In this document: one piece after another, positions 4,250 through 63,873 of the stretch
How positions within the stretch are numbered: position 1 is the stretch's first letter
How the letters are laid out: every line of letters starts with the position of its first letter
Assembly (NCBI GenBank): GCA_030374765.1
Contig: JARGXX010000088.1
Location: 124,001-188,000, forward strand
Origin: Agarophyton chilense
Taxonomy: Eukaryota; Rhodophyta; Florideophyceae; Gracilariales; Gracilariaceae
Length of the DNA: 64,000 bases
Direction: 5' to 3'
Program-made: the position numbers and the translations under genes
The notes under the pieces: model-generated
Databases searched by the model: none
What the model was told of the DNA's origin: nothing
Seen by the model: the letters and a program-made list of their open reading frames with translations, nothing else

Positions 4250-5038
4250 TGTAGGACAATGCCCCCAAGGGGGAAAACCTACGAAGGCGTCCGGATCTTC
4301 CTCTCACGAGGTAGCCGCCGCGGTAGAGCCCTCCCAGAGATCGGCGCGCAATGCCGTATGTAAGCCGGAGCCGAACCGTCGCGACGGGCGCAGGGAGGCT
4401 GAAAGAAGCCGATAATATCCGCCGAAGGGGTGCTTGCGTATCCTCTGAGGAGGCAAAACCCACGAGAGTGGCGAGCACGACAGGTGTCAGTGCGAGCCGC
4501 AAGAGCGGGAATTGCCCAATGAAGGGGAGGAAAAGGGAAGGAAAATGGGAACGGAGGCAAGAGGGCGAGGTTGACCACGAGTCGCAAGAGGGGACTCGGG
4601 AATAGCCGGCACTGCCGGGTGTAGCAAATCGTATACACGGGCGGAACCACGAAAGTGAGAATAGATACCCAACACACGAAGGCTGCTTGAACGTCCAAGG
4701 GGGTTAGGGAGCCGTGCACCATGGAAAATCCCTGCGTGAGGAGTTGTTTATCCGCGCAGGCGGTTCGATCCAGAGCCAAGATCTGGAAGACCAAGATCAC
4801 CTTTGTTGGGGAGACTTTACTGGACCAGCGGCCGCGAGGCCGGCGGCCTATGTACTGTAGTCACCGTAGAATAGAATAAATAGAGTCTATCCTAAATAGC
4901 TAAATGTCTGTCTAACAAAGGGGCCAATCTGGCGGCCACGTGTCGCGCGGGCGCCGCGGCCACGTGTATGGCACCCGGTCCCGCCGGTGCATCACCGGCG
5001 TTCCGGGTGTCGCCGTGAGAACGGATTACTCCTACTCA
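4250..5038 (-). repeat. 5' LTR of Gypsy-A
   Basis: Begins with TG beside the primer binding site (plus-strand view) and probably ends in CA at 5038. It contains the ACGTGTCGCGC and ACGTGTATGG blocks and an A/T-rich stretch placed as in the Gypsy-1/2 LTRs. The outer boundary is inferred, since only one LTR is in the window. Confidence 0.55.
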
Positions 5039-45143: not shown

Positions 45144-46040
45144 TGCCGTTCCACCTCCAACGAAATAGGTGTCGATGAGCTCGTGGAACACGGCATTCAA
45201 CGACGTACTACGCATTGACCACTTGTCTTTGGATCACGTTTGCGTGCTACATTTGATGGACAACGTGTCTACCTACTTCATTGCCCACGTAGGAAAGTCC
45301 ACGTCTATGCGGGAGGCAGATACGAAGTTCAACGAAATTTGGGTGGCTCAATTCTGGGATCCACAAGCATTAGAAGAGACAAATCGTTTCTCTTTGGAGC
45401 ATTCGGAGATCCCTGAAAGAAGCTTCACATACCGCTCCATGCCGTGTCACCCCGTCGTCAGGCTGAAAACGAAGTTTGCTCAAAGAATAACATCATTCGC
45501 AGTGTTTTCTAGAGACTCAAGTCGGCAGCCGGCGCAGACATCAACGCTGAGCGCTCTGCTGACATGGCTGTAACAATAAGCAATGACTTATATGGAAATG
45601 ACACCATGTTCGCATTCGAGATGGCCAAGGGCTACATCAAACTCATCAATAGCGGGCCACATGAAAATGTGCTCCCAACAGACGTGGGGTATTACGGCGA
45701 TGTGTTTGTCGCTCGTGGCAAGCTCCAGCGCATCCTTAAGTCCAAGACTTACAACGACAAACAATTCACTTCCGGTGAGCCCGTCGAAGTGTATGTTAAA
45801 AATGCAGATGGAGAAGCACGGATTGTGGTCGATCCCCAAGACTGTGACATCAGTCAACGCCGACGGCCGCATTGTCACTGTGACTAGCGAAGCTGGCATG
45901 GAAATGACAGCCACATCTCAGGATGCACGCGTCGCACTCCCTGAAACCAGATTCGAAAAGTTTGTGCAAGACGATATTGATGCCCTGAATGACACGAATG
46001 GCATCGAACTGCCACAAGAGTACAATGAAAACTTCAAATC

Positions 46041-46251
46041 TGGGCAAGACACGCTTGCCCCCTGGCACAATGCCGCCGGCGCTGCATACTAAACCTCACC
46101 CTTGCTCCACCCCGAGAAACTGGGAACTGAGAGGGCAAGGCGGTACACATGGTGCCCATTGGACTTTCCACGATTCGACGACGCGCTTTGCGAGCGCACA
46201 ATACAATTTAACAAAACAGCCCTCGCGCTCTGCGTAGGACTGCTTCACATA
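46041..46251 (+). repeat. 5' LTR of Copia-2
   Basis: TGGGCAAG to TTCACATA; aligns over its full length with 61696-61906 at roughly 80 percent by eye. Its beginning was chosen because the Copia-1 frame ends here with AAATC and because the 3' copy starts directly after a polypurine tract. Confidence 0.75.
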
Positions 46252-46265
46252 GTTATGGGCCTAGC
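46252..46265 (+). promoter_or_regulatory. Primer binding site of Copia-2 (half initiator tRNA-Met type)
   Basis: GTTATGGGCCTAGC is complementary, with one mismatch, to the anticodon stem-loop segment of eukaryotic initiator tRNA-Met (GCTGGGCCCATAAC). Priming from a tRNA-iMet cleaved in the anticodon loop is known for Drosophila copia and its relatives. Confidence 0.7.
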
Positions 46266-46334
46266 GTCAGGAGCTTTTATGACTTTCTATCCGACATATC
46301 CCCCAATGTTTGATCCGACCAAGGAGCCAAAAGA

Positions 46335-47390
46335 ATGGCACTGCAACGTTTGTCGATGGGTAGACACAATTCTACTGCTGCGAACAAGGGCACCGATCGT
46401 CGTTACCGAACATTCTTTACAACTCTAGGCCTACAGCTGCACCGCAAAGCTCTACCTAATGCTCAGAAATCCGTGTTCAACGAAGCCCATGAAAAAAAAA
46501 TTGTCGATTACAAGCAGGAGCGCCGAGTGAAAGTGGTATGCCAAATCGTTGAGCATATCGCAGTCGACCTTCCAATTGCTGTTGTCTCTCGTTTGATTTC
46601 CTGCTTCAATCGTGTTACAAACTGCCGTCCACGCAAGGATGAGCCTCTGGCTAGCTTCGTATCACGTTTCCGCGGCTAGGCTGCCGATGATCTCCTGCAT
46701 GGTGGACTATCATCTTCGTCTGAGGTTGTAGAAGTTTTGGCGATAACGCTACTCGAAAAATCATATTTGAGTGAGGAGACGTTGACCAATGCCAAACTAC
46801 AACTTATCTCTCTCGCCGAAGCCCGCATGAAAAGTGGAATCCACACTCGAGATACCCAGCACCAAATTAATCTTGTAAAGTTTCAGGAGTCCGTTGACAA
46901 CCTCTGTGAAATGCTATCGAAGCTTCAAATAAAGATTTCGAGGCGCGATAATCACAATATGACGAAGTCAAAGCTTTTGGTAAGCAATAGAAAGATCAAC
47001 GAAGCAGTCGTTGAGTTTGAGATAAATCTAACAGACACTCGCTGAAAGACCTTCCCAAATTTCTCTATGAACAAGCTCCTTCAGTTTACCCGCAGATGCC
47101 GTCTAAATCTGGACGACACCGTTACAGTCATACGGAATCTCTCTTTAAGTTCTTCGAGCTCTGCTGCTCACTATACAAGGGAAGAACTCAAAAAATTCGT
47201 GGGTCAGAAAGTCCAAACTGCCTTATATGCAATTTCTCAATTCAACCAGAGCGTACTAACTCGCTTTAGAAATAGGAAGGAGGGAAATGCATCAACCTTG
47301 TCTTTCAAACCAGGCACTGCAAAGAGGAGGCGCACCAATGTAAAGGCTGGGAAAGGTGGAAAGTCGTTCTTCTGATTCGATTGTGGTGAT
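46335..47390 (+). pseudogene. Copia-2 gag
   Basis: From an ATG at 46335 (MALQRLSMGRHNSTAANKG) through SVFNEAHEKKIVDYKQERR, ASFVSRFRG, SSSSEVVEVLAITLLEKSYLSEE, EARMKSGIHT and GQKVQTALYAISQF, in two frames with stops at 46677, 47043 and 47373. The last of these, TGA at 47373-47375, falls exactly on the first Cys of the zinc knuckle (F-stop-F-D-CGDAEHMSGNDLC), leaving the rest recognisable. The C-terminus is Lys/Arg-rich (GTAKRRRTNVKAGKGGK). It would have packaged the Copia-2 RNA. Confidence 0.7.
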
Positions 47391-47392
47391 GC

Positions 47393-48062
47393 CGAGCACA
47401 TGTCCGGCAATGACTTGTGCCCAAGTCTCTCATTTCTGACAACGAAGAGGAAGCTCGGAAGCCAACGCAATGATTCAGACGGTAGTTCCACAGCTCCTCG
47501 TCGTGGGGTAAGACATCCAGGAAATGATGCCTTAAGAGAACGAAACCGTGGATCTAACGCCGATTTTACGCCAGGCTCCGCCACATTGAAGCGCAATCAT
47601 GCCTGAAGTCTTGGGTTCGGGCGCCTTCTGATGTGGTTAGTGGAACGCAAGATCCTAAACCCATCATCGACATTGGATTTCTACGTAGTGTGGGATGCAT
47701 AGAGTCTGCTGCTGCATTATCAATCGAAATGGGCATCCAAATTCATGTTAAAGACCTCGACTGTGACACCCTTTTATCCCGGTTTTGGTCGAAAATGTTC
47801 GAATCCAAAACTGGTATTTGTATCTTCGAGGTTGAAGATCGAAAGACTCGGCGATGTGGAAGCAGGCATTAAGTTATACACTACGGAAGGCGACGGTCTT
47901 CTGCTTCAGGGTAGTGACATAGTGTCCCGTTCGGGCCTTATGGGCTTGGACAACAAGCTCGTAGTGCCCGTTTCGGTCGGAATCTCTTGGAATGACGCAG
48001 TTCTATAAACATACGTCCTAGGAGAAGACATTGACCGCCGAATACACCTATTCGTCGTTCTT
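47393..48062 (+). pseudogene. Copia-2 protease region
   Basis: After the knuckle, a basic linker (TTKRKLGSQRNDSDGS, LRERNRGSNAD) leads to a retropepsin-like segment: PIIDIGFLRSVGCIESAAAL (47660-47720) with the Asp of the DIG/DTG active site. It continues, after a frame change near 47800, with YTTEGDGLLLQGSDIVSRSGL, LDNKLVVPV (47870-47970). It ends before the integrase zinc domain. Stops and one or two frameshifts break it. Confidence 0.6.
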
Positions 48063-48386
48063 TTGATAGCAAAGTCGTTCAAATCATTCTTCTCTTCTCA
48101 TTCTTCTTTTCTCTCTAGGAATCCTCAGCCGATCGCCGAACTATCTCGCAAGGACGATATGAAATCAACGCATGCCCACCGCTTCGCCACAACTCTTCAC
48201 AATCATTCCCATCTCTCTTTCAAGTACATGAAAAAGCATTGCAGTCGAGCTAGGATACTCAATGGAACTCTTGTTGATGAGCTCGAACACGCCTACAATT
48301 TTTGCATTTCGTGCAAAAGGTCTGGCCGCCCCCTATATTACCAAAAGATATCACTCAACAGGATAGTGGTTGAGTTCAACGAGCAC
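48063..48386 (+). pseudogene. Copia-2 integrase, N-terminal part (left of Gypsy-2)
   Basis: Zinc-binding domain with HAHRF...HNHSH, MKKHCSRAR, ELEHAYNFCISC and GRPLYYQKISL, ending in EFNEH where Gypsy-2 inserted at 48387. The frame continues at 57302 on the far side of Gypsy-2 once the AGCAC duplication is counted once. The interruption is a few codons before the first catalytic Asp. Confidence 0.75.
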
Positions 48387-48833
48387 TGTAACGCAATGAC
48401 GGATTTGGTCAGCGTACGGGTCTCGAACGGTGATAGCGTGGTAGAGCGGGTCCTAAGGTTCGAATCCTTCACTTTGGCACTCCCAGAGTACTTGGTGCAA
48501 TGAGCTGGGGTTTCCTGCGTAGTTTTACAGGGTGGAGCTACGGAAAGGATGGCTTGAAGACCAAAGGGTGGAACTAATTCACCAAAGGGGGTTATTTAGT
48601 ATCCTAACGGTGCCTACCGTTCTCTAAGGGAAAAGCGTCACTCGAGCAAAGTAAATAGTACTGGCGAGGCGCTGAGATCTCCCTGGTACTGTATTGTTAA
48701 TCTATTACACGAATTAAATTAAATTAATAATCTACATGAGTCCACCTGAGGTCGATTCGTACACGTGTCATCTGCAAGATCCTTCAGGGCCCGGCGGCTT
48801 ACCGGGCTCAACCGTTATTATCGCTCCTTCGCA
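48387..48833 (-). repeat. 3' LTR of Gypsy-2
   Basis: Contains the best-preserved tRNA-like segment of the family at 48434-48467: GTGGTAGAGCGG, then AAGG-TTCGAAT-CCTT, a T-arm-like stem with a seven-base TTCGAAT loop. Confidence 0.92.
48434..48467 (+). promoter_or_regulatory. tRNA-like A-box and B-box in Gypsy-2 LTR
   Basis: TAGCGTGGTAGAGCGGG fits a D-arm/A-box and GGTTCGAATCC is a perfect B-box, only 7-8 bases apart (tRNA genes have 30 or more). The plus orientation points toward the antisense gene. The partner is 56898-56931 in the other LTR. Confidence 0.5.
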
Positions 48834-49469
48834 TATCTCCCTCCTTAGGAGTCGACCGTCACGGCGAAGTCCAGATGGTTTCATAACTGCTCCAGGGGAC
48901 CTGGCTCTAACTGGACCTATAGGGGAACCTCCAATGTTGCCTTCGGGGTCGGAACGTCATGATCCTCAGCTTCCGAATGGTCTGGACACGAGCGGTTGCC
49001 GTGCCCGACATGTTAGCGTCTCATGACCATCCCCGGGGGTTAGTTGTTCTCGTTTCCAGTGGGCCCGACGGGGCGTCGCATCGCCACCATCCTCGGGGGT
49101 ACCAGTGCTTAAGAGCCGACCCTTGGCGCCAGGTTGGCAATTAGTTCACCTAAGGTACTGTACGCGCACCGGGGGGGGAAGAGGTTCCTTTCCGCTTTTC
49201 CTATCCTTTGCTATTCCTTTGGCGACCCTACGCGCGATGTCTGCCGTGAACCACGGTGCGCGCTTCGTCCATTCAAGGTCACGTCAGTCATCCTGCCAGA
49301 ATCGGTTTCATGTTTCCTTCTTCCCTTCGCGGTATTCCTCCATTCGTCGCGCGCGATGCTGCGTTCGCCTTATAAGCCCGTCGGATATGCCATTCTCCCT
49401 CCGAACTATGTCGCTGCCGTCGGTGTCCCTATCCATTTCCCGGCGTACCAACCTGTAAGCAGCGGCACC
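48834..49469 (+). promoter_or_regulatory. Upstream region of the Gypsy-2 antisense gene
   Basis: Conserved with 6443-7069. TATAAG at 49371-49376 (CCTTATAAGCCCG) is 99 bases upstream of the ATG, as in Gypsy-1. The first bases after the LTR read, on the element strand, CTCCTAAGGAGGGAGATA, a good polypurine tract for plus-strand priming. Confidence 0.6.
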
Positions 49470-49980
49470 ATGGCTTCAAACAACCAAACGGGGAGCTTCT
49501 CGAGATACCAAGTGGCTTATGAGCGCCCTGAATGCCGCTATGAACAAACAATCGGACAAAATCCACGGGCAGTGCGTCATGCCCTTCTGCCGTCCCGTTG
49601 GAATTAATGCCTCTATGGACATTGCGACAGTCCTAAGGAAATCCTACTCCTTGGCGCGTCTCTCGGTGCGCTACGCTGCAGTTGTCCAACAGGGTCAGGA
49701 TCTAAAAACCGCCATGGTCAACATTCTGCAGCCGAATGCGCAGGCGATGTCCCAAAGGGTTACTGCCGACTTGGATGCCCGGTATGGTCTCAATTTGAGT
49801 AGCCGGGAGATTTCCGACGGTGACAATAGTTCCTCAGCAGAATCTCCGCCGAGGAAGCGTGCTCGGCTCGCTGGGGCTTGTTCAGTTGGTCCTGTTGGCT
49901 GCTCGGGTGACCCTAGTCCCGGTTTGGCTCCTACAGGTTCCAATGAGGACGACGGCGTTACTCCTACGCCGCCTCAGTGA
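49470..49980 (+). pseudogene. Gypsy-2 antisense gene, internally deleted
   Basis: ATG at 49470 in ACCATGG. The N-terminal 45 codons (MASNNQTGS, YQVAYERPECRYEQTIGQ, RAVRHALLPS) match copy A of Gypsy-1. Then about 1.46 kb present in copy A is missing, and the gene resumes one frame over at MDIATVLRKSYSL with AAVVQQGQDLKTAM, LDARYGLNLSS and the C-terminal DGDNSSSAESPPRKRARLAG (NLS-like) ending TPTPPQ at 49980. The deletion joins the halves out of frame, so only a short N-terminal peptide could be made. The C-terminal exon-like block is open and well conserved. Confidence 0.7.
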
Positions 49981-50107
49981 GTCCTGTTGGTGTTCGAAGC
50001 GCTTCCCCAAAACTTGAGGTCATACCGAGGGCTGTTAGGCTTCAGTTAGTTACTCGATTAAGTTAAATAAAGTAGTGCTTGTGCTTTCCCAAGGTCTTTC
50101 TTGTATC

Positions 50108-52500
50108 TCAAATGTGCGTGCCGCAGGACGGCGTCCCATTTTGAGAGCGTCCCGGGTCTTCCTCAGGTGTCTCTGATGGATTGAATTTGTTCCCTGATGC
50201 GGGAGCTACGACAAATCGTCGTGCTCCGGCGAACCGTCGTGTCGGGAGGCGGTTTGGGAGGCATTTTGGGATTATCCGGGCCAATGGTTGGATTATTCGG
50301 ACCAATGGTTGCCCCCTCTTGAAGGCCGCGCTCCGAGTGGCTGAATCTGCGCCAATTGCGGGCGATAAAATTAGCAGGAATGGTTTGAGGCTCTTGCCAA
50401 GTATCTTCCTTAGGTGTGTAGCCAATCCAACGGACGCGATAACGCAAAGTTCCATCTTCTCCCCGACCGGCGGAGATGATGCGCTCAATCACATATTCCG
50501 GGTGGTATTCATTCTCCGGAAGGAGAGTGTGGTCCTGAGGGGCGAATCCATCGGAGTTGGTTGAGAGAGATGGGTCCTAGTAGTTGGCATTGACCATCGT
50601 GTCCGTGGGGCTAGTGGAGTCATCGGGAACTGCCTTAAGGGGTGTGGATACTTGAGTGTCGACCTGAGGTCGTGGTGCTTCCGTTGTACCAAGGGGCTGG
50701 GACGTTCGTGGTCCGGAGAAACTGGGGGCTCGTGTCACGCGGTCAATGGACAGGGTATCCTGTAGGCCGTCAATGAGTAAAGTGATGGTGTGTTCATTGG
50801 TCTTAAGGACTTTGTATGGTCCCGTAGAGCGGGTTAAGAGCTTTCGCGTAGTGTCCTCGAGTTCCTCACTGTCCTTCGGTGGCCGGTCCAAGAAAACCAG
50901 ATCTCCTTTCTTAAAGGTCGGTGTGTTCCAAACGGCTTTGTCGAAGTTGGACTAGTAGCGCCGTTGGGATTTGGTTAGTACAGTTCTAGCCAATTGAAGA
51001 ATACGGTCAATGCATCGGCGCGAGTAGCGCTTCGCCTGGGTAAGAGTCATCCTTACGGTTATGTACTGGGGTATGATAGACTCCTGAAGGTCAACAGCTA
51101 TCGGCGACGGCGCTCTCGTTAGCGTTAAGCCGAAAGGCGTTGTCCCTGTGGAAGCGTGCACCTGCGTGTTGTAGGAATAAACCAGTGGCTCAACGTATTC
51201 GTCCCAGTCTAATTGGTGCTCCGAAACATAGTGCGCCAATCGTTCCAGAAGGCTGCGGTTGAAGCGTTTGGCTTGGCCATTGGTTTGCGGGTTGTACGCC
51301 GTGGTGTTCGCATGTTGGATACCTAAGGTAGCACAGACATGCGAGAAGAATTTGGATACAAACTGGCTGTCGTTATCCGTAAGGAGGTAGAGTGGCAAGC
51401 CATTTGGATATACCCAGTTGGACATGAAGGCCATGGCGAAATCCGTGGCAGTTGTCTTTCCTAGGGGTAGGGCTCGGGTAAGTTTGGTAAACCTATCGGT
51501 TATAACCAAAACGACCCGTTTCCCGTGGGACGACTTAGGCAAAGGCCCAAGTATATCCATTGCGACAAATTACATTGAACCTGGGGCAGGGAAGAGCTTC
51601 AGTTTGGCCTGATGGTTGGCGCGAGACCCTCGGATCTGTGCGCACGATTCACAGTTCCGTGCGGGTTGCCATAGGTCCGGCGCCATTAATGGCCAGTAGA
51701 AAAACTTCCTTAGGGTCTGGTACATTTGTAGGCATCCAGGATACCCAGCCAAGTGGGGGAAATTGGCGAGGTATAGGAATCGCGCCCTTAGCGTAGTTGG
51801 TACTACCGGTTGAAGTGCGCCATCCAGCGGTGAGCGGCGACATAGTAGTCCAGATCGGTCATAGTCGAACAGGCATCCTGGGGTTCCTACCAATTGGGCT
51901 GCTGCCTTGAAGTATTCGTCTTCGACCTGCGCCTGTAGAAGTTCCTCAATAGTTATAGGGAGGAGCTCTTTGTCCTCCGGGTTTATTGCATTAACCTGAG
52001 GTCGTGCCGAATTGGGCCGTACAGTTTCCCAGTCCAATAGGTATACTTCGTTCTTCTTTACGTCAGCGTCCTCTGATTGAAACTTACCCATAAGGTCATC
52101 AGTTTCCGTACAGTCCTGAGGTCCATCATCTGTAAAGGTGGTGGGAATATGGTCGTCCAATGGGTTGTCATCAGTTCCGTCGGTAATGATTCGCGACAGG
52201 GCATCTGCTTCCTACTGCTTGATGCCTGCCCTATAGGTTATCTCGAGGTCATATTCTGACAGCATGAGGCGCCACCTGGCGAGGCGACTCGATGAATCGG
52301 TCATATTGAGTAGCCAGCGGAGTCAGTCATGGTCTGTCCTAATTGTAAAACTGGTTCCCTCGAGGTACGGACGGAGTGTCAATACGAACCATACGATGGC
52401 TAGGCATTCCTTTTCGGTCGTACTGTTGTTTCGCTGCGCGCTGGTGAGTGTTCTGCTCCAGTAGCCAATAGGTCGATATTCCTTCGGTGATTCCTGTTCC
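50108..52500 (-). pseudogene. Gypsy-2 RNase H end, integrase and chromodomain
   Basis: From 52500 down: the RNase H remainder; the RNase H-integrase linker (52160 on, MDDHIPTTFTDDGPQD); integrase zinc domain (HFPHLAGYPG-type H..H, CESC) ending at a stop at 51570; catalytic core (51560-50952) with MDILGPLPKSSHGKR (first Asp), LTDNDSQFVSKFF (second Asp) and NGQAKRFN, where Lys replaces the catalytic Glu; C-terminal domain (50891-50577, MDRPPKDSEELED); and chromodomain 50492-50350 (MIERIISAGRGEDG, YRVRWIGYTPKEDTW) with a Pro/Thr-rich tail. Integrase inserts the cDNA, and the chromodomain would tether it to marked nucleosomes. Confidence 0.85.
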
Positions 52501-52511
52501 TGTAGCAGTAC

Positions 52512-53891
52512 TCAACCCTCTTGGACATCAAAGGCAACTGTGCCCAGGATGAAAGGCCTATTGGGCTTTGGTAAGGCCAATACGGGTGGGTTCAGCAATT
52601 TGTCCTTTAGGGTCTGAAATGCTTCGTACTGGTCGTCCGTAAGGGCTTCGAACTCCGAAGGTGTTCCCTTCTTCAGCATGGCTTTTAGAGGGGCCGAGAT
52701 CTTGGCAAACCCTTGAACGAACCGTAGGTAGCCGCTGCACAAGCCCACGAACGGTCGTAGTTCCGTGTGGTTCTTAAGAGGCTTAGCCTGTCGAATCGCA
52801 TTCGTTGTCCATATAGCCACCTTTAGCTTTCCTGGGAGGACGACGTGACCCAGATACTCCACTGAGGCATGGAGGAAAATGCATTTGCGGAGCTTCAGAG
52901 TTACTCCAGCGTCCTGTAAGATTGATAGCACCTTCTTCACGTGGCGAAAGTGTTCCTTTACGGTCCGTGAGAAGATCATCACGTCATCCAAATAGACCAG
53001 GGCAAACTTCCATTTGATTTTGGACACTATTATGTCCATTACCCGTTGGAAAGTGGCTGGTGCATTCTTCAAACCAAAGGGCATACGAGTAAATCTGAAC
53101 AGACCTTTATGGGTGGTGAAAGTTGTCAGCTCTCTCGCGTCTTCAGCCAAAGAGATTTGCCAATATCCCGAGCTAACGTCCAGTGTGGTAAATTCGACAG
53201 CTTCGCCTAAGGAACCCAGACAGTCGTCCATGCGGTGTATCGGGTATGAGTCCCTCTTGGTTACTGCGTTCAGCTTCCTGTAGTCGACACAGAACCTGAC
53301 GGAGCCATCTTTCTTCGCCACAAGGACAAGGGGACTTGCCCATTCGGATTTGTTTGGAGGCGCCGGCTCCATAACTTGAGCTTTGCACATCTTTTCCATC
53401 TGGTCGGCGACAATCTCTCTACCTTTAAGGCCGGTACGGTATGGGTGCTGGAACTGTGGTCTAGCATCATCCTGAAGGTTAATGCAGTGTGTAGCGGCTC
53501 TGATTGTGCCCAATCTACATGTCCACATGGCCTGGTATTCCCTGAGGAGATCAAGTACCTGGGGCCTGTAGGATTCGAATTCTTCGCCGATGGCGACTGT
53601 CCCCTCCCAAGAGTCGACGTCCTCGTCGGGAGTTGGCGTTTCAAGATTATCAATTTGGGCCTCCATAATGGTCACGGGAGCAGGTAGAGTGATACTAATC
53701 ACTGTACCTTTAGGGAACCGCACGGGTTTATGTCGGAAGTTGCTGATTGGGACCAAGAAAGACCTGTTGGGGTGGATGTGCATCACTCCATTGGCCATTA
53801 AGTTAGGGAGCTTCAGGACACTTCTCGGGTGGTACTGAATCGTTCCGAGACCAGAGGACTGGTAACGGACCGATACAGCGATTTGGGTCAT
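52512..53891 (-). CDS. pol: Gypsy-2 reverse transcriptase (open fragment of pol)
   Basis: A 459-codon open frame, the longest intact piece of Gypsy-2. It starts at an internal ATG in the protease-RT linker (DEDVDSWEGTVAIG near residue 98). RT motifs: KSEWASPLVLVAKKDG, FCVDYRKLN, TTLDVSSGYWQIS, MPFGLKNAPATFQRVM and YLDD at residues 300-303, then SVEYLGHV and ELRPFVGLCSGYLRF. It ends in the first strand of RNase H, where ILGTVAFDVQEG replaces ILDTDASDVQVG of Gypsy-1, so the catalytic Asp is Val, followed by a stop. RT itself looks complete, but there is no intact frame joining it to protease or integrase. Confidence 0.85.
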   Translation of the reverse strand: MTQIAVSVRYQSSGLGTIQYHPRSVLKLPNLMANGVMHIHPNRSFLVPISNFRHKPVRFPKGTVISITLPAPVTIMEAQIDNLETPTPDEDVDSWEGTVAIGEEFESYRPQVLDLLREYQAMWTCRLGTIRAATHCINLQDDARPQFQHPYRTGLKGREIVADQMEKMCKAQVMEPAPPNKSEWASPLVLVAKKDGSVRFCVDYRKLNAVTKRDSYPIHRMDDCLGSLGEAVEFTTLDVSSGYWQISLAEDARELTTFTTHKGLFRFTRMPFGLKNAPATFQRVMDIIVSKIKWKFALVYLDDVMIFSRTVKEHFRHVKKVLSILQDAGVTLKLRKCIFLHASVEYLGHVVLPGKLKVAIWTTNAIRQAKPLKNHTELRPFVGLCSGYLRFVQGFAKISAPLKAMLKKGTPSEFEALTDDQYEAFQTLKDKLLNPPVLALPKPNRPFILGTVAFDVQEG

Positions 53892-54082
53892 CGGCGGTAT
53901 CGCTATGGCCTTTGACAGGCAAACCTTATTGGACTTCGTGTGTGCGGATACAACCGCCCGTTTGCGGTTAGCTTCTGGCCCTGGGGTTGTACCAGTTATG
54001 TAGATGGAAGGTGCGCGGTAAAACGCGACTTTCCTAAGGGCCGGATAAATGGCCTTAAAGTATCGGTCGATAAAGGAAGTCC

Positions 54083-54463
54083 CTAGGATTGCTTCATAAG
54101 GAACGACTTGCCGACTTTGACTTGTCTTGCCTGGAGGTAAGGTGGTACTATCCCTTTAATATCCATTGGTCTACGAGACGCATCAGTAATCCTTGGGGTC
54201 TTCCTTGCCTGAACGAAATCTTGCCAATCCAGTGGGAGCAGCTTAGGATGGGCCAAGTTGGGACCAGCGCCTGTGTCCAATACAGCTGTCATCACTCGAG
54301 AGTTGTTGGAACGAAGTCCTACGGTTACTCGAACTTTATAGTTCTCTTTCCTGAGGATACAGACGGGGTCATTACTGTGTTCAGATTGTGGTTCATCCTC
54401 AGTGGTCCATGGTGGGTGGTTTGTATTGGGAGGTGAGGAGCTCTTTGGCTCATGACCGTCCAA
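54083..54463 (-). pseudogene. Gypsy-2 protease
   Basis: MTAVLDTGAGPNLAHPKLL shows an intact retropepsin active site, followed by ARKTPRITDASRRPMDIKGIV as in Gypsy-1. A deletion of about 19 bases relative to Gypsy-1 near 54090 shifts the frame and ends it before the flap-to-RT linker. Confidence 0.75.
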
Positions 54464-54513
54464 TTGGTTGAGGCAGGGGCTTAAAGAGGGAGGATTTGCC
54501 TCGAGTCGTCCTT

Positions 54514-56726
54514 CTAGGCGTTTTCCGATGGGGTTTCCGTTTCTTTCTGAGGATAGGGTTCTTCCACGGGGCCGTCCGCAGGATCTACAATGGCGTGGAC
54601 CTGTGAGGCTTTGATCGGAGTGTCCGGGGGCGTGGAATATCGTGAGCTTCCAGCGGTCCCTGTGGTTCGTTGCTGTGCCCTATTATACATTCCCTCGGAT
54701 CTCCGCACCCGTTAATTCTCTTCCCTTAAGGCTAGGAGGGTTTTACGTGCGTCCTCAGGCAGATACCTCGTACAGTCACAAGGTTGAGTCAGTGACAAGC
54801 AGAAGAAGCAGGCCCTTGGGGAGCGAACAGAAACGTCCTTGCGGGGCGGAAAGGGAGAGTAGTTGGGTGTGGGGGGTCTAGTGGTCGCTGTAGTTCCCTG
54901 GGAGGTGTATGATGGGGGCCTAGACGGAGAAGCAATGAAATTGACCGCGAGGACATCTCCGGAGTTGGCGTAATGGAGTGAAGCATCCATGCCCGACTCA
55001 GTGGAGCTAACCGAATGGGCTTGGTTGGGTTTACGCAATGGAGTTGCGTGTCCGCTGGTTATGTCAGCGTTGCGCCTGGAGGTTCTGTAGGTTTTGCCAT
55101 ATCCATCGGCGTAGGTATCGGGCCTTCGGAAGCAGTATTGCGGGTTTTCCGTGTAGTAATTGAGCACATGAGTCCGAATGGCATGAAGCAATCCCGTGGT
55201 GAAGTGACGTTCAAGCCGTCTTTCGGAAAACAAGTTTACACATTTCTAAGCCCTCATCCATAGGTCGTCTGCGAAAGCCGATTCGGTCATGTTGGAGCTC
55301 TGCCTAAAGGATATTTCTTCCTGGTGGGCTTCCATTATAACGTCATCCGTGGCGTAAGTTTCCAAGAGGTAATGAACAACCTGAGGGTATGACCTGGGGA
55401 GCTCACGGTCTTGAGCATCCACGACGTCAGTTGTGCCAGATTTCTTCGAAACCACTTGGTCACGCGCCTGTCCTGTAAGGAAGAATTGGAAAAGGTACAG
55501 AGCGGTGCCCTCTTGGACACCGTTGTAATTGCAGGCCGTACGGAACAAAATGAGAATCGTAAGGGCAGCAATGGGATCTGAACCCGAGAACTTGTTCGTA
55601 ATGGTTAGTTGCATCCGTTTGGCCCATTTGGCGACTCTACGAGCCACCGAACAAGAATATTTCGCGGATTTGTCGGCCAGCCGGTAGTGTAGGTATTCTA
55701 AAACCTTAAGGAAGAGTTTGTTTGTGGTTGTAAGTAGTCTGAGGCCTCGAACGGCAGCCTCATCCACTTCCGAGTAGGTCGTTTCGGTCGAGGCCAATTC
55801 GGAATCACTCGTGTCCGGATAATCTCTTCTCTTGCTTCTTCTTTTCTTCTTTCTCCTACGGTTGCTTATTCTCTTCGTTCCAGCGGAGTAGGGACATAAA
55901 GGATCGATCTCTCTATCAGATCTGATTGAGCCCTGAGGTCGCTGTACCTCATATAATCCGTCGGGTGGGGCAAGCGGTCTCTCTTTTAGACGCGGAGCTT
56001 CTCTTCTGCTCCTTGCTTGTCCCTCCCTTGGATTCTCCTGCTGGGCAACCTGTCTCTCATCTAAACGCGGAGCTTCTCTTCTGCTCCTAGATTGGCCCAC
56101 CGTGGGGTTTTTCTGATGGTATTCCCGGCGAGGGGCGGACAACGCCGCCACTCTTGGGGGTTCGGTAGGGGGTGGTCCTAGGGACGAAATTGCCCGCCTG
56201 GCGGGTGACGGCTCCTTGAACGGCCTGTTGAAGGGAGTCTACGAATAAGTCCGACTCCAATACCTTAGGGACGATTCGCGCGATGAGATAATCCGTATGA
56301 TCAGCGATCGCCGTAGCGAGTCGCACGTCCATAATTGAATCCACTTGGGTTGAGCAGAGCTCACGGAGAAGGGGCTAAAGAAGGTCGGCAAGACCTGCGG
56401 GCAGGTTTTCTCGAATTCCTTCGGTCTGGGGGGTTTCTCCTTGAGGTGTCCCTGGCCTAGAGGTGTCCCTGGCCTAGAGGTGTCCCTGGCCTAGAGGTGG
56501 CCCTGGTGAGGCGTTCTCGTAAACGCGCTGCCACCGTGAGTTCTCGGCGAATCTTTTCAGGATTATCCAGTGGGGTCAACACTCCTTGCGGCTAGCTTTT
56601 TGTGCTTCTGCGGTCGCTAGCGGTATCAACCTGAGAATCAGGCGACAGCGCTGGCGTTGTAGTCGCAATTTGTCCTGCCGTAGGAGTCCTATGGTCGGGT
56701 CGGTTAGGTGTGTTTCCTGCATCCAT
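54514..56726 (-). pseudogene. gag: Gypsy-2 gag
   Basis: Probable start ATG 56726-56724 (MDAGNTPNRPDH). A frameshifted N-terminal part is followed by MDSIMDVRLATAIADHTDYL (56344) and a long frame 56151-55246 with repeated Arg/Glu units (SRREAPRLDERQVAQQE, SRREAPRLKERPLAPPD), a basic block KRISNRRRKKKRRSKRRD, and the capsid-like part (YHYRLADKSAKYSCS, ATDDVIMEAHQEEISFRQ). A C-terminal frame 55233-54712 ends in a Cys-rich knuckle remnant CFFCLSLTQPCDC, which has Gln where CCHC has His. A short Pro/Thr-rich tail (54708-54514) is frameshifted. The two SRREAPRL units are a short internal duplication. Confidence 0.8.
56403..56500 (-). repeat. Triplicated GAGGTGTCCCTGGCCTA unit
   Basis: Three to four tandem copies of a 17-bp unit (GAGGTGTCCCTGGCCTA) at about 56442-56500 in the gag N-terminal region; Gypsy-1 has one copy (near 17675). 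The 17-bp length shifts the frame with each copy and explains the break between the gag start and 56344. Confidence 0.8.
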
Positions 56727-56829
56727 AATCGCGGTTTCTTCTGTACTTCTGGTCCGTTGGGGAACTAGACCAAATGTTAGAATCCGGATAATTCTTCGTT
56801 CCGGTTGTCCGTTCAATTATTCCAAAGTT

Positions 56830-56847
56830 TTCTAAGTCTGGAGACCA
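56830..56847 (-). promoter_or_regulatory. Primer binding site of Gypsy-2
   Basis: TGGTCTCC-A-GACTTAGAA on the element strand, three bases from the LTR, the same 18-mer as in Gypsy-A and Gypsy-1 but for one base. Confidence 0.65.
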
Positions 56848-56850
56848 AAA

Positions 56851-57296
56851 TGTAACGCAATGACGGGTTTGGTCAGCGTACGGGTCTCGACCGGTGGTAG
56901 CGTGGTAGAGCGGGTCCTGGTGTTCGAATCCTTGACGGCTGCAATACCAGAGTACTAGGTGCAATGGAATGGCGTTTACTGCATAGTCCTACAGGTTGGA
57001 GCTACGGAAAAGATGGCTGGAAGACCAAAGGGTGGAACTAATATACCAAAGGGGTAATTTAGTATCCTAACGGTGCCTACCGTACTCTAAGGCAGAAGCG
57101 TCACTCGAGCCAAGTAAATAATACTGGCGAGGCGCTGAGATCTACCTGGCACTGTAGTGTTAATCTATTACACTAATTAAATTAAATTAATAATCTACAT
57201 CAGTCCACCTGAGGCCGATCCGTACACGTGTCATCTGCAAGATCCTTCAGGGCGCGGCGGCTTATCGGGCTCAACCGTTAGTATCGCTCCTTCACA
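56851..57296 (-). repeat. 5' LTR of Gypsy-2
   Basis: Partner of 48387-48833. The tRNA-like segment is at 56898-56931 (GTGGTAGAGCGGG, TGTTCGAATCC). Confidence 0.92.
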
Positions 57297-57301
57297 AGCA
57301 C

Positions 57302-58066
57302 CTTCAAGTCGATTTCGTGGTCAATCGCGAGGTTGTAAACCTCCCCAATCTGCTTATGAAGGATGTATTCAGGAGTCTCTCTGACACTGTCTTGATGCTT
57401 TCAAGGGGTATGACTGATACCGCTCGTATGATTCTCGTTCATTTGTTTGATGTCTTTGGGCCTCCATCAAAGTTATCAGGAAACCCAGAGTTCAATAACG
57501 ACTCCATTCAGCAATTGTGTGTCGATAATCACATATCACTCGAACCGCGTCCTGCTCGACGCCACAACAAAATTGGAAGCGTGGAATCGAGCACCGAGAC
57601 CATCCGTACATTCGTACAAACGCTCCTTCTCGACGAACTCCATCTGAGGGAAATTCGTAAAGTCTATCGCACACACTTTGAGATCCTCTCAAAAGCAACA
57701 TTCCTTAAGAATGTGCTTTATGGTAACAAGTCATTCAGCAGCATTGAGCTTTTTCACGGCTCCACTCCTTCTGTTTGTGGTTTACCCAAGCAGATGCTAC
57801 CAGAGAAGCTCTTCACTTCCTACCACGAACAAATTTCCGGGCGTGCCGTACACACCTTACTTCGTCCCATGCAATCGTATCCTTCATCAAAACACCTTCT
57901 GACACCAACCACTCCGGTATACGTCTTCAGGAGGGTTGGAAAATATAGAGCCCGGTACAAGACATTTGTGGTCACTACTATTGACCGTATAGTGTCGGTT
58001 TCTCCAAGCAAAACTCTTCAGGGACCGAAGCATCAGACCGCCTACGAGGACGTAAGGTTAGTCTAG
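57302..58066 (+). pseudogene. Copia-2 integrase, catalytic part (right of Gypsy-2)
   Basis: Continues the frame from 48386. LQVDF carries the first catalytic Asp. LVHLFDVFGPPSKLSGNPEFNN has Asn where the second Asp (SGDPEF) is expected. IGSVESSTETIRTF carries the Glu. Then SKATFLKNVLYGNKSFSSIELFHG and a C-terminal part (VYVFRRVGKYRARYKTFVV). Open over 250 codons to a stop at 58064, so only the substitution and the Gypsy-2 insertion damage it. Confidence 0.75.
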
Positions 58067-60060
58067 CGTTCCTCCCTTCTACAGCAACTGGACAAACCGG
58101 AGCTTGGATACTCGTGCTTCGCGGACACTACAGACCAAGAAGAACCGATCCAAATCCCTGAAGAAAGAAATGATACCGAGTGCTTTCTCCATCCGCTTCT
58201 CCTAGATGAAGAAGTCATAGACCTTCTGTGCAGCATACAAGACCTTTTAAGTTTCTACCCAAACATATCGGACGAACCAAACTTGTGGTCTCTCCACCCG
58301 TTCTCTTCATACCTCTTTGCATCACAGGGAGACAACACGGCTGTTTATGTACCCTCAATGGACGTCCGGAATCCTCAACTTGGAAGAGATGTTGGAGACA
58401 CCTCGCTTAGGTTCTTTACCACAGGGGAAAGTCTATTGTCTTCGAAGCAAAGGATTCTCGAGCAGATGAAAAAGGTCATGGGAAACTAACCAATCACAGA
58501 AGTTAAGCTTCAGTTCGCCCTGCGATAGGTAATTGACAAAGCCATCGAAAAAGAAAAGAGAAACTACTCGGAAGGCGAGGCATACAAGCCGATCTACATC
58601 AAAGAACTCCCGCTAAATGCAAATACTACATCCTCCCATCACTTCTTCCTAACGAAGTTCGATGGAGAGAGTGGTAAGCTCAAGCTCAAGAGCCGGCTGG
58701 GGCCCTCTGGGAATCGAGATTCCCAAAGGGATACCATTCGATCTGACACTTCCACGGCTCAGTTCACCAGAATCAGACTTCTGCTTTCCCTTGAAACTTT
58801 TCTACGCTTGCCCTTTGAAAGCCTTGACATCTCTATAGCATATTCTAAATCAGGCGACCTCTAACGAGATATATACAAGCGGCCTCCAAAGGGATGGACA
58901 AAGTTCGTGGACGGTGTATGGAAGCTACTCAATCCCGCGTATGGCCTCGTAGAGTCCGGGCGTCTCTGGCAGCTGTGAATCGAGGAATGGATTTGTGACT
59001 ACGGATTCCGTACATTCTCTGGTATGCTACAGATGTTCATATTGTCGGACGACCACGGGCGTATATCTCTACTTCTGGCCAAATTGGTGGACGATCTTCC
59101 CCTTGCCGGATCAAAGAGTGAGATGAACACCTTCCCCAAGGCTCTCTCAGCTCGCTTCGTGGTTGACAGAACTTTCTTCAAGAACAAGATTATCTTCAGC
59201 GGCCTTTGGATTCGGCAATACGAAGACTTCTTGATCGAGATCTCCATAGCAGAGTTTATGGAAAACTCGACCTCATTCCGATCTTAAGAGATAGAAGGAA
59301 GCAGTCTGATGATCTATGCCCCGAACAATAATTCAAAGAAGTACAAGAAGTCCAGTCTCTTGCTGGAAAACTCAACTCCCTCAGCCATGGTGTGCTACGT
59401 CAAGCCGCGTACGCCTCTAGCTTCCTACAGGAGTTGGTCCCATGGATGCGCGTAAGGCATCTCTTGCAGACAAATTAGATTCTCAACCTCTTCCTTAAGC
59501 TCCGTCCGGTCGTGAAGTACAAGGCTCCAAGATAAAATGAACGCTTGCCACATAGTCACGTTCTCTGACGCCAGCACTGCAAAGTCTTCGTACGGTCAAA
59601 CTGGCTGCATCACTGGCATCATCTTCTCCCATAGCCAGGACGTTTCATACCACATCGTCGACTGGCATAGCCCGAAGCAAGGACGCATATCTTTTAGTTC
59701 AATTGGTGCGGAATTACTTGCGGCAGCAGAATCTGTAGACAGATTCTTACAACTTAGGGAGTGCATGGAAGTTCTTATATCGGTTTTCGGTTCATTTTTC
59801 TTTTAGGGCGACTCATTTGGTTTTTAATCGACGATTACTACCCTTCACGAATGCCGAGACTACCGATTGCGCCCATCCTTGTCGCACCTTCGTTAATCGT
59901 TCGAAGCTGGCGGCATAACCTCCATGCGCTGGATAGCAAGAAGTCTGAAATTAGCCGACGCTTTGACAAAGAGCAATCATCATTTATTTACTTAATTGAA
60001 CCAAGCTATGGTTCAAAGTATACTAAGCAAAGGTATCATATCTACTATAGGCCACCATAT
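58067..60060 (+). pseudogene. Copia-2 reverse transcriptase and RNase H
   Basis: A linker with several short frames is followed by RT: KPIYIKELPLNANTTSSHHFFLTKFDG (58590-58670), ESLDISIAYSKSG, IYKRPPKGW (58873), NPAYGLVESGRLWQL (58935), the active site KLVDDLPLAGSKSEMN (59080-59130, both Asp kept) and DRTFFKNKIIFSGLWIRQYEDF. RNase H (59537 on): TFSDASTAKSSYGQTG, VDWHSPKQGRISFSSIGAELLAAAESVDR, and the ADALTK-like end near 59950. Stops at 58864 and 58977, with frameshifts around 59290 and 59800, break it. Confidence 0.75.
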
Positions 60061-60105
60061 TGGGGCATGGAACCCTAAGGCTTAGGATCCAATATGGCAA
60101 AGCTT

Positions 60106-61423
60106 TCAAGCTCTGTTCGAGGAACCTTCTTGGTGACGACTTTTCCTCCCACGGCGAGTGCGTTTTCCATCCTTCCTCTCTGGGAGCAAGAGCATTATGG
60201 GACAATCCGCAATGTGACTAAGAGAACGGTCTGATCCAACACAGGACTCCAGGGCAACCTGCATGAGATTCATGTGATACTTCTCCACTGGATCAATAAT
60301 CATGTTGCGCTCCCCATCTATTCAAATCCCATGAAGGTATCCTTCAATCGCCTGAAGACTTGCAAGGAAGACCTTTCCGCTATCGACTAAGTTATCCAAA
60401 TTGAAGATTTCTTCTCGGTGCTCAGTCCCATCGCGAAGGTAATCGAGGTTAATAACGCGGGTCTGTTCCCGAACGAACCTCTGCATATTTTTGAGGTCCC
60501 GGAACACTACTCGGACCTCTCCTCGCGCATTCCGCTTCCAATGTTCGAGCTCAATAACATCACCAAGCCCAAGACCTGCAACGGCGTTCAACTATATCCC
60601 ATTATTGTCCGCGTTCCTCCTAACGCGATCGACGTGATACTCCCAACACTCAGCAGCCTTATCGGAAATAATGATGATATCTAATGCATTTCCTTAAGAA
60701 GCTTCAAGGCACAGAATCGTCTCGTAGAGAAACTGCACGGACATATGACGGAGATGAAAACTTCGGACACCAGATAATGGCGTCCACGCTTCGGGTTGAA
60801 GCAATGTGAGCCTTTCACCTGGCTTTGGGCTGCAAGTAGCCAAGATGCTCTTGATCGCTTCATACCTGTCTTCGCCTCCCCAATGAAGGGTTCCTTCTGC
60901 TCCTTCGCCACCATAAGTCACCTTACTTCTTGACGCACCATCTCCGACTGCCTGACTGTACTCAACTCGGAAAGTACGCATATCTATGCGGCACACTACG
61001 TTAGTGCTATGCACCAGAGCATAAAATTGGTTCTTAATCTCACCACGACATCCTCTCGACAACCATACCTTTTCGATCATCCAATCGTTGTACTCTATTA
61101 TTATGTCAAGATTTTTGTCGTCATCATAGACCTCCGTAAGGCCCAATCAAAACAGCATCAACCCTCCAAGCTACCCTGCGCCCCAGCAAAAGAATGGCTT
61201 CGTTTTGGCTAAATCGCACGAGTTTGTTGCTGTCTCTGAATGTAACTTCTTTGGTTTTTCTAACGGCACGTTGCTGTTTGGAAAAGAAAATCCTGACAAT
61301 ACTTTTGTTAAAATGTTGGTCAAGATATATTTTGCTTGTAAGTCTCGCCGCTTCGCCCGTGAGCTGGCGTCGTGGGGCTTTTAATCCATCGGTTTTGCGA
61401 GACGTCTGCTTAGTGCGAGCTAT
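60106..61423 (-). pseudogene. Copia-2 antisense gene with histone H3 N-terminal tail
   Basis: On the minus strand, codons from 61423 read ATA then ARTKQTSRKTDGLKAPRRQL..EAAR, clearly a histone H3 tail (H3 begins ARTKQTARKS). The H3 start ATG is ATA, so the start is lost. H3-like residues Lys4, Arg8, Lys9, Lys14 and Arg17 are kept; Lys18 is Arg. Similarity to H3 ends after about 27 residues; the histone fold is absent. The frame continues through VRKTKEVTFRDSNKLVRF to 61140, shifts once, and then stays in one frame to 60106 with only three stops (about 60694, 60592, 60322): LTEVYDDDKNLDIIIEYND, WGGEDRYEAIKSILATC, ALDIIIISDKAAECWEYHVD, LKNMQRFVREQTRVINLDYL, ending RRGRKSRHQEGSSNRA. About 440 codons in all. 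I recognise no domain after the tail. It lies between RNase H and the 3' LTR, against gag-pol. A recruited H3 gene 5' end fused to an element-borne antisense gene is the simplest reading. Confidence 0.7.
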
Positions 61424-61501
61424 TGATGTATTCAACCGAGCGAAAATCGTCCACGCTGTCGAAAGAGAGGTGATACGTCGAGTTCTGCGTCAAAGTTTCA
61501 C

Positions 61502-61526
61502 ATTTATAGATGGAAGCAATGACGTA
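61502..61526 (-). promoter_or_regulatory. TATA box and TGACGT motif upstream of the H3-tail gene
   Basis: On the minus strand TCTATAAATG (61509-61502) lies about 80 bases before the first H3 codon, and 11 bases further upstream is TACGTCA (TGACGTA on plus, 61520-61526), an ATF/CREB-type core. The arrangement resembles a compact histone promoter. Function is inferred. Confidence 0.5.
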
Positions 61527-61684
61527 GCATATTTGGCGTTTTGGCGCGTGCTCTGTGCTCGAAAGAAAAAAAGAGGGTCAATCGCAAAAGAATGAGGGCA
61601 CGGAGAAGAGATTTGTTGACATAATTCGCCTGCGAAGAAGATGCTCGAAAAAGTATCGCGGTTAGCGTCTTATTGTATCTCGCC

Positions 61685-61695
61685 AAGGCGGGGGG
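61685..61695 (+). promoter_or_regulatory. Polypurine tract of Copia-2
   Basis: AAGGCGGGGGG directly before the TG of the 3' LTR at 61696; the expected primer for plus-strand DNA synthesis. Confidence 0.55.
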
Positions 61696-61906
61696 TGTGC
61701 AATAAATGATTTCCACACGGCACAATGCCGCCGGCGCTGCATACTAAACCTAACCCTTGCCGCACCCCCAGACACTGGGGATAGAGAGAACAAGGGGGTA
61801 CACCTGGGGCCCACTGGACTTTACCCGAATCGACGACGCGCTTTGCGAGCGCATACTACATTTTAACTAAACAGCCCTCCCGCTTTGCGTACGACTAATT
61901 CCCATA
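61696..61906 (+). repeat. 3' LTR of Copia-2
   Basis: TGTGCAATAAATG to TTCCCATA, partner of 46041-46251, followed by GAATC and the resumption of Copia-1 at 61912. Confidence 0.75.
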
Positions 61907-61911
61907 GAATC

Positions 61912-63873
61912 GACTTCTGACACTGTGGCTACCGACAATGATTTTGGCACAGATGCAGAAGAAGAAGATGTCACTGCCAGCGTAGTTGACAGAGTGAAAA
62001 TCTTTTGGCCGTCTGATGACCAGTATTATCCCAGCACTGTGGATTCTGCCGCGGAAGACTGTCTCGTCAATTTGCACTATGACGACGGCGGCAAAGAAGT
62101 GCTGGACATGGCCAAGGAGGTTTGAAAATTTCCCAATGCCATTCCCTCCGGGACATTCACAAGTACAGTGCCGCTATCTGTTGTCAGTCAAGAAGCTTTA
62201 ATGCTAGAGCAAATGCTGGACATCTTTTGTAACAAGACATTCCTTCAGTATCAAGCTCAGGACTTTGAGCAGTATCTAGTATACAATGCGGATGCCAAGA
62301 AAGAAGGAAGCTTCCTCAAAACCGCCCAGCCTGTGCTTCGTCCCCATTTCTCACCTAATGCCAACATTATTTTCAGCCATAACTTCTTTAAGGTGCAGCA
62401 TAAGGGCGACGGTTCTTTGAAGCTGAAGGCCAAGATTGCCCCACATGGGGATGAAGACAACCTGAAAGACATGCTGAACAAGGACTGTACCAACTTCCCG
62501 CCCACATGTTTGAACATCCTAGACAGTATCGCCTCCCTGCAAGGCTGGATGAACTACAAGGATGACGTCTACGCAGCCTTTCTCCAAACTCGTAAAGCGA
62601 AGCGCGAAGTTTATGTTCGCCCGCCAAAGGATAATGAGATGAAGTAAATGCACGTCTGGCTATGCACTTCTGGCTTCTTCGTGCGTCTGCCCAGGGTATG
62701 GTAAACGCCAATGCGAAGTGGTAGTACGTACCGGAAGAAGTAATGAAGAACATTGGTCTGATACAGTACACTCATATCCCGCAACTCTTTTATCAGAAGG
62801 CTGATGGCAACCTGGTGCTCAATGTAGCCAAGATTTTGGGCGACCTCAAAGCAACCGGCGCCGATCATCGTACAAAACGCTTTCTAACTGAATTCAACGA
62901 TCGCTTTAAGTTCGGTGTGGTCTAAAATGGTCCAGGGAAGCTTAGACTTTTCGACATTAACACCATTCAGCGTGAAAACTTCTCCACTGAAACCAATGCT
63001 TAAGATAAAATGAATGGTATCACGGAGTACCAAATCACCGGCATGAACCGCAAAGAGGCCGATCGGTCCATGAGAACAATCGAGAAAGCTGCGTTTGCAT
63101 CCATCAAAAGCTCTTTGAGCTGGATTCCAACAGCTGCCTCCCCACTGTGTTTCTTGAACAGTACTCACTAAGAGCAGGAAGCCCCCGAACTTCGCGTTTC
63201 GCAAATCGCGGAACAATTGACTATTGTTTGGAAGCTGAAGAATCTGGATACTGTGATCACATTCTTTCGCTTTGATGACAGGCGTGACTACGACCAAAAT
63301 GTTCCAGTGTTCTCGGATGCCTCTCGCATTGTCGACCTCGGTCAACTCGGGGTTTTAACTGGTCTTCTCGTTTGTTCCTTGAAAAAGGATGTTATCTACC
63401 ACTTTATGTCGTGTATATTTCACAGAGCCAAACAACCGATGAAGATCGTACCTTCGGCTGAGATACTCGCGGTAGGGGAAGGGATGGACTAGGGAAAGAA
63501 CATGCGCAGTGCTCACACTAAGCTGCAAAACGTCGAGGTCAAGCTCCGCATTCTGGTTGACTTTCAAGATTTGGTTGCGTCTATGTCGACGAAGAAAAAT
63601 TTTGTGGACTACCCAGTAAAAGGTGTTTTAAGCAGCATTCAGTTCAAATTCGAGACTGGCAGCGTGAATTCCATCTCGTGGATCCCAGGTTCTGTAAATC
63701 TCGCTGACACTCTGACTGTTATCGAAAGCCTTATATCGAAGACTTGTACCACTACACTATCGATACGTCCTTTCTTCTATGAACTAGACTATCGACACGC
63801 CCAATCGTCTACGCAGCATCTTTTCCACTTATCTCTGATAGAGAGAGTCGTGGTTCTTTCTCCTAATCGGTAG
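61912..63873 (+). pseudogene. Copia-1 linker, reverse transcriptase and RNase H
   Basis: Linker with DTVATDNDFGTDAEEED and a Tudor/chromo-barrel-like segment (VDRVKIFWPSDDQYYPSTV, LHYDDGGKEVLDMAKE). RT (62168-62647): SHNFFKVQHKGDGSLKLKAKIAPHG, ILDSIASLQGW, YAAFLQTRKAKREVYVRPP. After a frame break, QLFYQKADGNLVLNVAKILGDLKATG (62770-62860), where the active-site pair is Gly-Asp instead of Asp-Asp. RNase H: VPVFSDASRIVDLGQLGVLTG (63302), IVPSAEILAVGEGMD, ILVDFQDLVASMSTKKN and INLADTLT-like VNLADTLT at 63696. It ends at 63871. Stops at 62123, 62645, 62923, 63001 and 63490. The polymerase is inactive by both substitution and frame breaks. Confidence 0.78.

Follow-up and report, generated by a model that had tools for sequence, protein, structure and literature searches.

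The 64,000-nucleotide window analysed here (contig JARGXX010000088.1 of the red alga Agarophyton chilense, positions 124,001 to 188,000) holds a Copia-type long terminal repeat (LTR) element. On the strand opposite its gag-pol, between RNase H and the 3' LTR, we found a gene of about 440 codons (60106..61423, minus strand; defined from the sequence and from its genome family) that begins with an H3-like histone tail. The window copy (locus L009) is decayed. Its frame begins at ATA (61421-61423), where the initial annotation of this DNA had noted a lost ATG, and terminates with a stop at 60106-60108. Scored over a 376-codon reference, it carries three in-frame stops and one frame-shifting gap, the same defects that had been described from the window. 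The start codon place and the tail (residues 1-27) occupy 61340..61423 of the minus strand, as judged by a PDB match, genome search and alignment; minus strand 61420-61340 reads ARTKQTSRKTDGLKAPRRQLTGEAARL, preceded by the ATA. The H3-like character of the first codons was confirmed with the protein of a sister copy, residues 1-26 of which matched PDB entries of H3 peptides (E 1.1e-5). The N-terminal tail is the part of H3 that is present, and the histone fold is absent: no histone Pfam match was obtained with the gene pieces or with a second copy (L069), and the window locus was not among 13 PF00125 matches.

The rest of the gene falls into a middle region, a peptidase-like domain and a basic C-terminus. 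The middle region (60712..61339, minus strand) joins the tail to the peptidase-like domain; it was delimited by genome search, and its structure model is poor. Putative catalytic codons for Cys (..LCLEAS.., 60709..60711), His (..YLHGI.., 60331..60333) and Asp (..MIIDPVEKY.., 60292..60294) are all retained on the minus strand of the window copy. The C-terminus (60109..60180, minus strand) reads ERKDGKRTRRGRKSRHQEGSSNRA and may resemble a nuclear localization signal. An AATAAA follows the antisense stop (59983..59988, minus strand), as read in the window copy alone.

Tail and body across the genome

We searched the host genome (79.8 Mb) with the tail of host H3 and with two pieces of the gene. 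The H3 tail gave 43 matches, comprising 3 H3 genes, 8 rows from a second repeat and 32 rows of the Copia antisense type, and the two gene pieces gave 58 and 62 places (matches, not loci). In 29 of the 32 Copia antisense-type rows the body adjoins the tail. At two C105 places the match to one gene piece continues past the tail and there is no body row with the other piece; at C128:816889 the tail matched alone, and the sequence there could not be read. Where the start could be read, an ATG precedes the tail in 22/27 copies. Many Copia copies with the same tail on the same body, and an ATG in place of the ATA, had been predicted, and both were found. The outcome that was to count against the idea, an H3 segment confined to the window copy, did not occur, as there are 32 tail loci of the same kind. 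A single chance insertion of an H3 fragment was thus rejected, since tail and body recur genome-wide.

The tail begins directly after the ATG in those 22 copies, a placement that suits a mimic with a free N-terminus. As a general rule, a start methionine that precedes alanine is removed. Residue counts were made over 28 loci without end trimming, unless another denominator is given. The first residues are mostly kept (A1 26/28, R2 21/28, T3 20/28, K4 25/28, Q5 24/28), as are R8 (23/28), K9 (25/28), S10 (20/28), G12 (23/27), K14 (20/28), Q19 (24/28), L20 (23/28), K23 (24/28) and A25 (24/28). Four residues are lost wherever they could be read: T11 (0/28), K18 (0/28), T22 (0/28) and K27 (0/29). 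The natural variants are K18R, K27 to I or V, T11 to V or D and T22 to G or S, and likeness to H3 ends near residue 26. When six copies were compared with the three host H3 genes, agreement at codon positions 1, 2 and 3 was 20-22, 22-23 and 6-12 of 27, a ratio that does not distinguish which lineage carries the silent changes. The protein sequence of the tail has been kept while silent sites drifted to near randomness.

Selection was tested on 34 loci: 30 from the first gene piece and 8 new ones among 30 from the second, minus 4 near-identical loci (L019-L022). The other 22 of the second piece's 30 cut-out loci repeated first-piece places, one extra alignment piece (L034) was dropped, and 28 and 32 remaining piece matches lie outside the sample. 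The ratio of nonsynonymous to synonymous substitution rates (dN/dS) was 0.42 in the gene frame. The two shifted frames of the same strand gave 0.97 and 1.02, and the three frames of the opposite strand 0.90, 0.52 and 1.06. For the tail taken separately dN/dS was 0.55 (bootstrap over loci 0.45-0.66) versus 1.16 and 0.85 in the shifted frames. Values below 1 across copies, tail included, are what the initial annotation had named as the sign of selection, and the H3 tail has been maintained by purifying selection during multiplication of the element.

The gene has also been inherited together with its Copia element. At the 16 loci that had both, gene distances were correlated with those of the RNase H-side flank (r 0.57, 0/2000 permutations), the gene diverging faster than the flank (mean 0.198 versus 0.135). 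Among the copies, L018-L022 (C81, two places on C82, C14 and C106) are five near-identical copies of one decayed element, which suggests recent segmental duplication or repeated contig ends.

The second H3-bearing repeat was found at seven loci (L073-L079, accounting for the 8 H3-tail rows: C113:928500, C7:761800, C77:408600, C31:408300, C75:632200, C75:728200 and C7:650600), whose copies are 84-90% alike. These carry the first ~43 H3 codons and a little 5' sequence, mostly 80-85% identical to the H3 gene L001 (92% in one). In 5/7 a frame shift lies near residues 13-15, in the same direction, and in 2/7 the first part is missing; this is apparently passive capture of H3 in the same genome. In contrast, the Copia tail is in frame with a long body, stands at an ATG and has a dN/dS of 0.55, so the frame-shifted repeat provides a natural control for it.

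The region upstream of the antisense gene, still within the element (61424..61684, minus strand), has ACGTCA at -102 and TATAAAT at -85 in the window copy. ACGTCA was present upstream in 17/27 copies versus 0.05 per 140 nt elsewhere in the flank, these copies being related rather than independent. TATAW was found within 140 nt in 5/27 copies, one of them at -5, and the TATA box of the window copy was dropped as a candidate because it is confined to these 5.

Relatives of the body

The part of the gene behind the tail had been taken for an unrelated sequence. This view did not hold, as the body has distant relatives and belongs to a family of peptidase-like proteins. We examined sister Copia families, whose reverse transcriptase (RT) is ~37-45% identical, at five loci. 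L083 and L084 carry an antisense relative of the body (tblastn E 5e-6 and 2.8e-9), L080 gave a C-terminal piece alone in a later search, and no body relative was found at L081 and L082. Pieces of L084 match 44 and 92 places in the genome, and at least 10 of these matches oppose a listed Copia RT in strand, as in the match/RT pairs C100:26809/28067, C11:218361/219619, C96:607781/609245 and C80:588644/589908. The genome search tables for the LTR and the Copia RT are lower bounds. The body of the H3-tailed copies is homologous to that of the other copies (hhalign probability 98.5, E 2.5e-15, 16% identity). In all, the family is multi-copy, with an ATG-started tail on one and the same body, and the body has homologues in the antisense genes of sister Copia families, which have no tail where they could be read. 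The N-termini of L084 and L085 as read are not H3-like, and the tail therefore looks like a later addition in one branch of the body family.

Open-frame relatives not placed in any element include L085 (471 codons), L086 (477 codons) and L088. Multi-copy peptidase-like relatives were seen at L085 (C92:376000-377900), L087 (C100:127200-128700) and C4:1729359; they comprise long open frames (471 aa) and shorter versions of 276 aa that lack a middle block which includes the Cys. These could be host genes or a mobile family that is still active. A profile of the domain found 5 proteins in the protein database, and the relatives are named as Agarophyton chilense and Gracilaria domingensis. The phycobilisome-linker family accounts for 13 matches in the host genome, 6 of which fall on a single contig (C39) taken to be the plastid; with the names of the relatives, this points to a red alga, probably of the Gracilariaceae.

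The common signature of the family is a Cys (..CLxASLxNA..), then His-x-[IV]-x-[IV]-[DN], then an Asp, and the H3-tailed copies retain the Cys in 25/28, the His in 21/25 and the Asp in 22/24. This gives the Cys, His, Asp/Asn order found in papain-like enzymes. In papain-like peptidases the Cys stands where a helix starts, the His belongs to a strand and the Asp follows the next strand. In the predicted structure of L088 (predicted local distance difference test score, pLDDT, 76; predicted template modelling score, pTM, 0.72), C34 lies close to where helix 32-47 begins, H121 belongs to strand 119-126 and D134 follows strand 131-133. By motif order and by this model of a relative, the body resembles a peptidase-like domain. 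A model of the whole H3-tailed protein reached a pLDDT of 49.6 and was not used.

Transcription crosses one of the sister antisense genes: L092 is identical at 210/210 residues to protein P0003 of a transcriptome contig (GEZJ01004105.1), a contig in which strand information is absent.

The Copia-type element of the window

The element that carries the gene spans 46046-61906 and is bounded by a 5' LTR (46046..46251, plus strand; blastn with the 208-bp LTR of L071, 76.7% identity) and a 3' LTR (61696..61906, plus strand; found by LTR comparison). The two are 85.6% identical over 188 bp, which indicates an old insertion. The 5' LTR and the distant relatives of the body are additions to the initial annotation, which had missed this far-off repeat because another element is nested at 48387..57293. 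This second element, on the minus strand, was recognised by its long minus-strand frames and because L071 is colinear across the gap; by eye, its frames are those of a gypsy-type element.

L071 is a better copy of the element (C92:555260-562291, LTRs 92% alike) and shows the uninterrupted order: LTR, gag/protease region, integrase, RT/RNase H, antisense gene, polypurine tract and LTR. Pfam places its integrase (rve, E 7.1e-5) before RT (RVT_2, E 0.058), both below the Pfam cut-offs; with this weakly supported order and the LTR direct repeats, the element is of the Copia type. The 5' internal part of the window copy, the gag/protease region (46252..48386, plus strand), aligns with L072 and L071 at 82-84% (L072 160-994 with 46040-46876; L071 1-1603 with 46783-48386). 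L071 then bridges the nested insertion, which disrupts the integrase region, and continues from 1596-4400 at 57294-60088. The integrase-RT-RNase H part (57294..59806, plus strand) has broken frames and is 80% identical to L071, and the whole of 57294-61906 aligns with that element, whose plus strand has integrase-, RT- and RNase H-type frames. This alignment and the 3' LTR at 61696-61906 bear out the position first proposed for the gene, antisense to Copia gag-pol and between RNase H and the 3' LTR. A polypurine tract (AAGGCGGGGGG, 61685..61695, plus strand, from the sequence) precedes the 3' LTR. Immediately beyond the LTR, 61907-63873 appears by eye to be a decayed Copia-like stretch, so an older Copia copy may have been the target of the insertion.

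L069 and L070 share one further element (93.9% alike), which lies within the region of the antisense gene in both. Its position there differs between the two copies but its relative orientation does not, perhaps reflecting a target preference. Its junction with the gene had suggested a gypsy LTR or a mobile unit of ~1.9 kb in its own right. We rejected this, because at most of the 60 loci that were fetched the similarity extends into the Copia RNase H side and stops at a common outer edge, the 3' LTR, and the 208-bp LTR was found upstream of gag too.

A candidate function for the antisense protein

We propose that the gene encodes an accessory protein which would present an H3 tail to chromatin readers or writers and carry a peptidase-like domain, probably directed against silencing (probability roughly 0.6). 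Antisense transcription from the 3' end of the element would yield a protein of ~450 residues in four parts, namely the H3 tail (1-26), the middle region, the Cys-His-Asp peptidase-like domain and the basic C-terminus, and removal of the start Met would leave Ala1 free as in real H3; for both steps the support comes from sequence. Host proteins that read, write or erase H3 marks could then bind or modify the tail around K4 and K9, and the loss of K18 and K27 narrows the choice of host factors. The basic C-terminus would favour the nucleus, and the tail would bring the peptidase-like domain to chromatin or to H3-binding factors. If the domain acts on the proteins it meets there, silencing would be weakened and the element would benefit. 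In its most specific form, the K4/K9 tail would be read or methylated like that of a nucleosome and would deliver a cysteine peptidase to silencing complexes; we consider this version less likely than not.

Several observations weigh against the proposal. Open frames had been expected in many copies; tail and body are indeed multi-copy, but no copy examined has a complete open frame, the longest open stretches running for 376 codons downstream of the ATG (L069) and for 341 codons up to the natural end (L017). Among these decayed copies the conservation of the Cys, His and Asp ranks just 77, 155 and 63 of 341. The body gave nothing above cut-off in Pfam, NCBIfam and PDB sequence searches and matched no known peptidase family there, and the H3-tailed protein had no match in 5.8 billion proteins (646 candidates, then 8000 scored). 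The transcript, from a strandless contig, belongs to the sister gene L092 rather than to the H3-tailed gene. Selection on the tail is weaker than on the rest of the gene (dN/dS 0.55 versus 0.41), and in the 24 closest pairs, a small sample, the tail had a dN/dS of 1.8 and the body one of 0.60, a pattern to be expected if the recent changes reflect decay of the inserted copies. Finally, the opposite-strand frame with a dN/dS of 0.52 shares the gene's third positions; we read its value as an echo of them, and yet it is a control against a naive reading. Separately, a search of viral contigs confirmed 0/18 pattern stretches.

The tail might instead be a nuclear or chromatin address, or a basic arm that binds nucleic acid, with no specific reader, the body being the active part. 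The higher dN/dS of the tail relative to the body would fit, as would the basic C-terminus, and L084 and L085 share the body and have no H3 tail where read, so the tail would be dispensable for the role of the body. However, the order ARTKQTARKS starting at residue 1, with A1 and Q5 so rarely changed (26/28 and 24/28), would not persist in a mere arm, nor does such an arm account for residue order being kept although third positions are near random relative to host H3. On balance we consider this explanation rather unlikely. Another candidate is the antisense transcript itself, which could pair with gag-pol RNA and regulate the element; regulatory antisense transcription is discussed for LTR elements in the part of PMC7264820 available to us, but selection at the protein level and protein homology across divergent Copia families would be left unexplained, which makes it improbable. 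We consider it still more improbable that an H3 fragment was swept in by chance and copied as a functionless passenger: L073-L079 demonstrate that such capture occurs in this genome, and the frame-specific selection, the ATG, the long in-frame body and the dN/dS of the tail all disfavour it here. Least probable is a peptidase-like family captured from the host whose main action is in cis, on proteins of the element itself, the tail tethering it to chromatin near the insertion, since, although L085, L086 and L088 are unplaced in any element and so could be of cellular origin, several such relatives are multi-copy and may be mobile too, and no substrate is known.

By position, the H3-tailed gene corresponds to the aORF-3R class of antisense open reading frames between pol and the 3' LTR, for which the available part of PMC7264820 lists maize Grande gene23, rice RIRE2, Silene Retand, PvRetro13 and Boty. 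According to the same excerpt, GENE23 of Grande has a reported nuclear location, aORF-3R products have no clear similarity to other proteins except for an SMC domain in PvRetro13, and their roles are given as unknown (PMC7264820); the word 'histone' occurs 0 times in that paper. Our gene lies antisense to gag-pol between the RNase H frame and the polypurine tract and LTR in L071, and it is present and conserved at the protein level across family copies. As far as the source describes them, aORF-3R genes share this place and orientation, presence in most copies, protein-level conservation and an upstream region of their own. The named examples come mostly from plant gypsy-type elements. Here, by contrast, the element is of the Copia type, the host is a red alga, and the product would have an H3 tail and a peptidase-like body.

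Histone mimicry has precedents. Influenza NS1 carries an ARSK histone mimic and binds CHD1, as stated in the accessible portion of PMC10612106. Like NS1, the Copia element is a mobile genetic parasite with an ARTK-like sequence for H3 readers; NS1, as the source portrays it, has four residues at its C-terminus with no free N-terminal amine, and its binding has been shown, while here there are ~26 N-terminal H3 residues known from sequence. Proteins with a SNAG domain, GFI1 among them, bind LSD1 by mimicking the H3 tail. They share N-terminal H3-tail mimicry with our protein but are host transcription factors with a short, divergent mimic. Chromoviruses are gypsy elements with an H3-reading chromodomain, and thus LTR elements that exploit the system of H3 marks; whereas they carry the reader, the Copia element would carry the thing that is read. 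The body is like papain-like peptidases and deubiquitinases in its Cys-His-Asp order and, in the model of the relative L088, in the helix-start Cys and strand His, but has no sequence match to a known family. In a literature survey at the level of titles and abstract openings, we found no described H3-tailed retroelement.

For decades, LTR elements have been known to carry antisense accessory genes to which no role is assigned, as far as the available part of PMC7264820 indicates. The sequence of this Copia antisense gene hints both at its own target, through the H3 tail, and at a candidate chemistry. The natural variants K18R, K27 to I/V, T11 to V/D and T22 to G/S provide a ready-made set with which the importance of individual H3 contacts could be examined. 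Transposon silencing in red algae has been little studied. The element described here would be a red algal mobile element that mimics a histone with a full-length N-terminal tail and, if the histone-tail-guided peptidase is real, would represent counter-defence by wearing the substrate.
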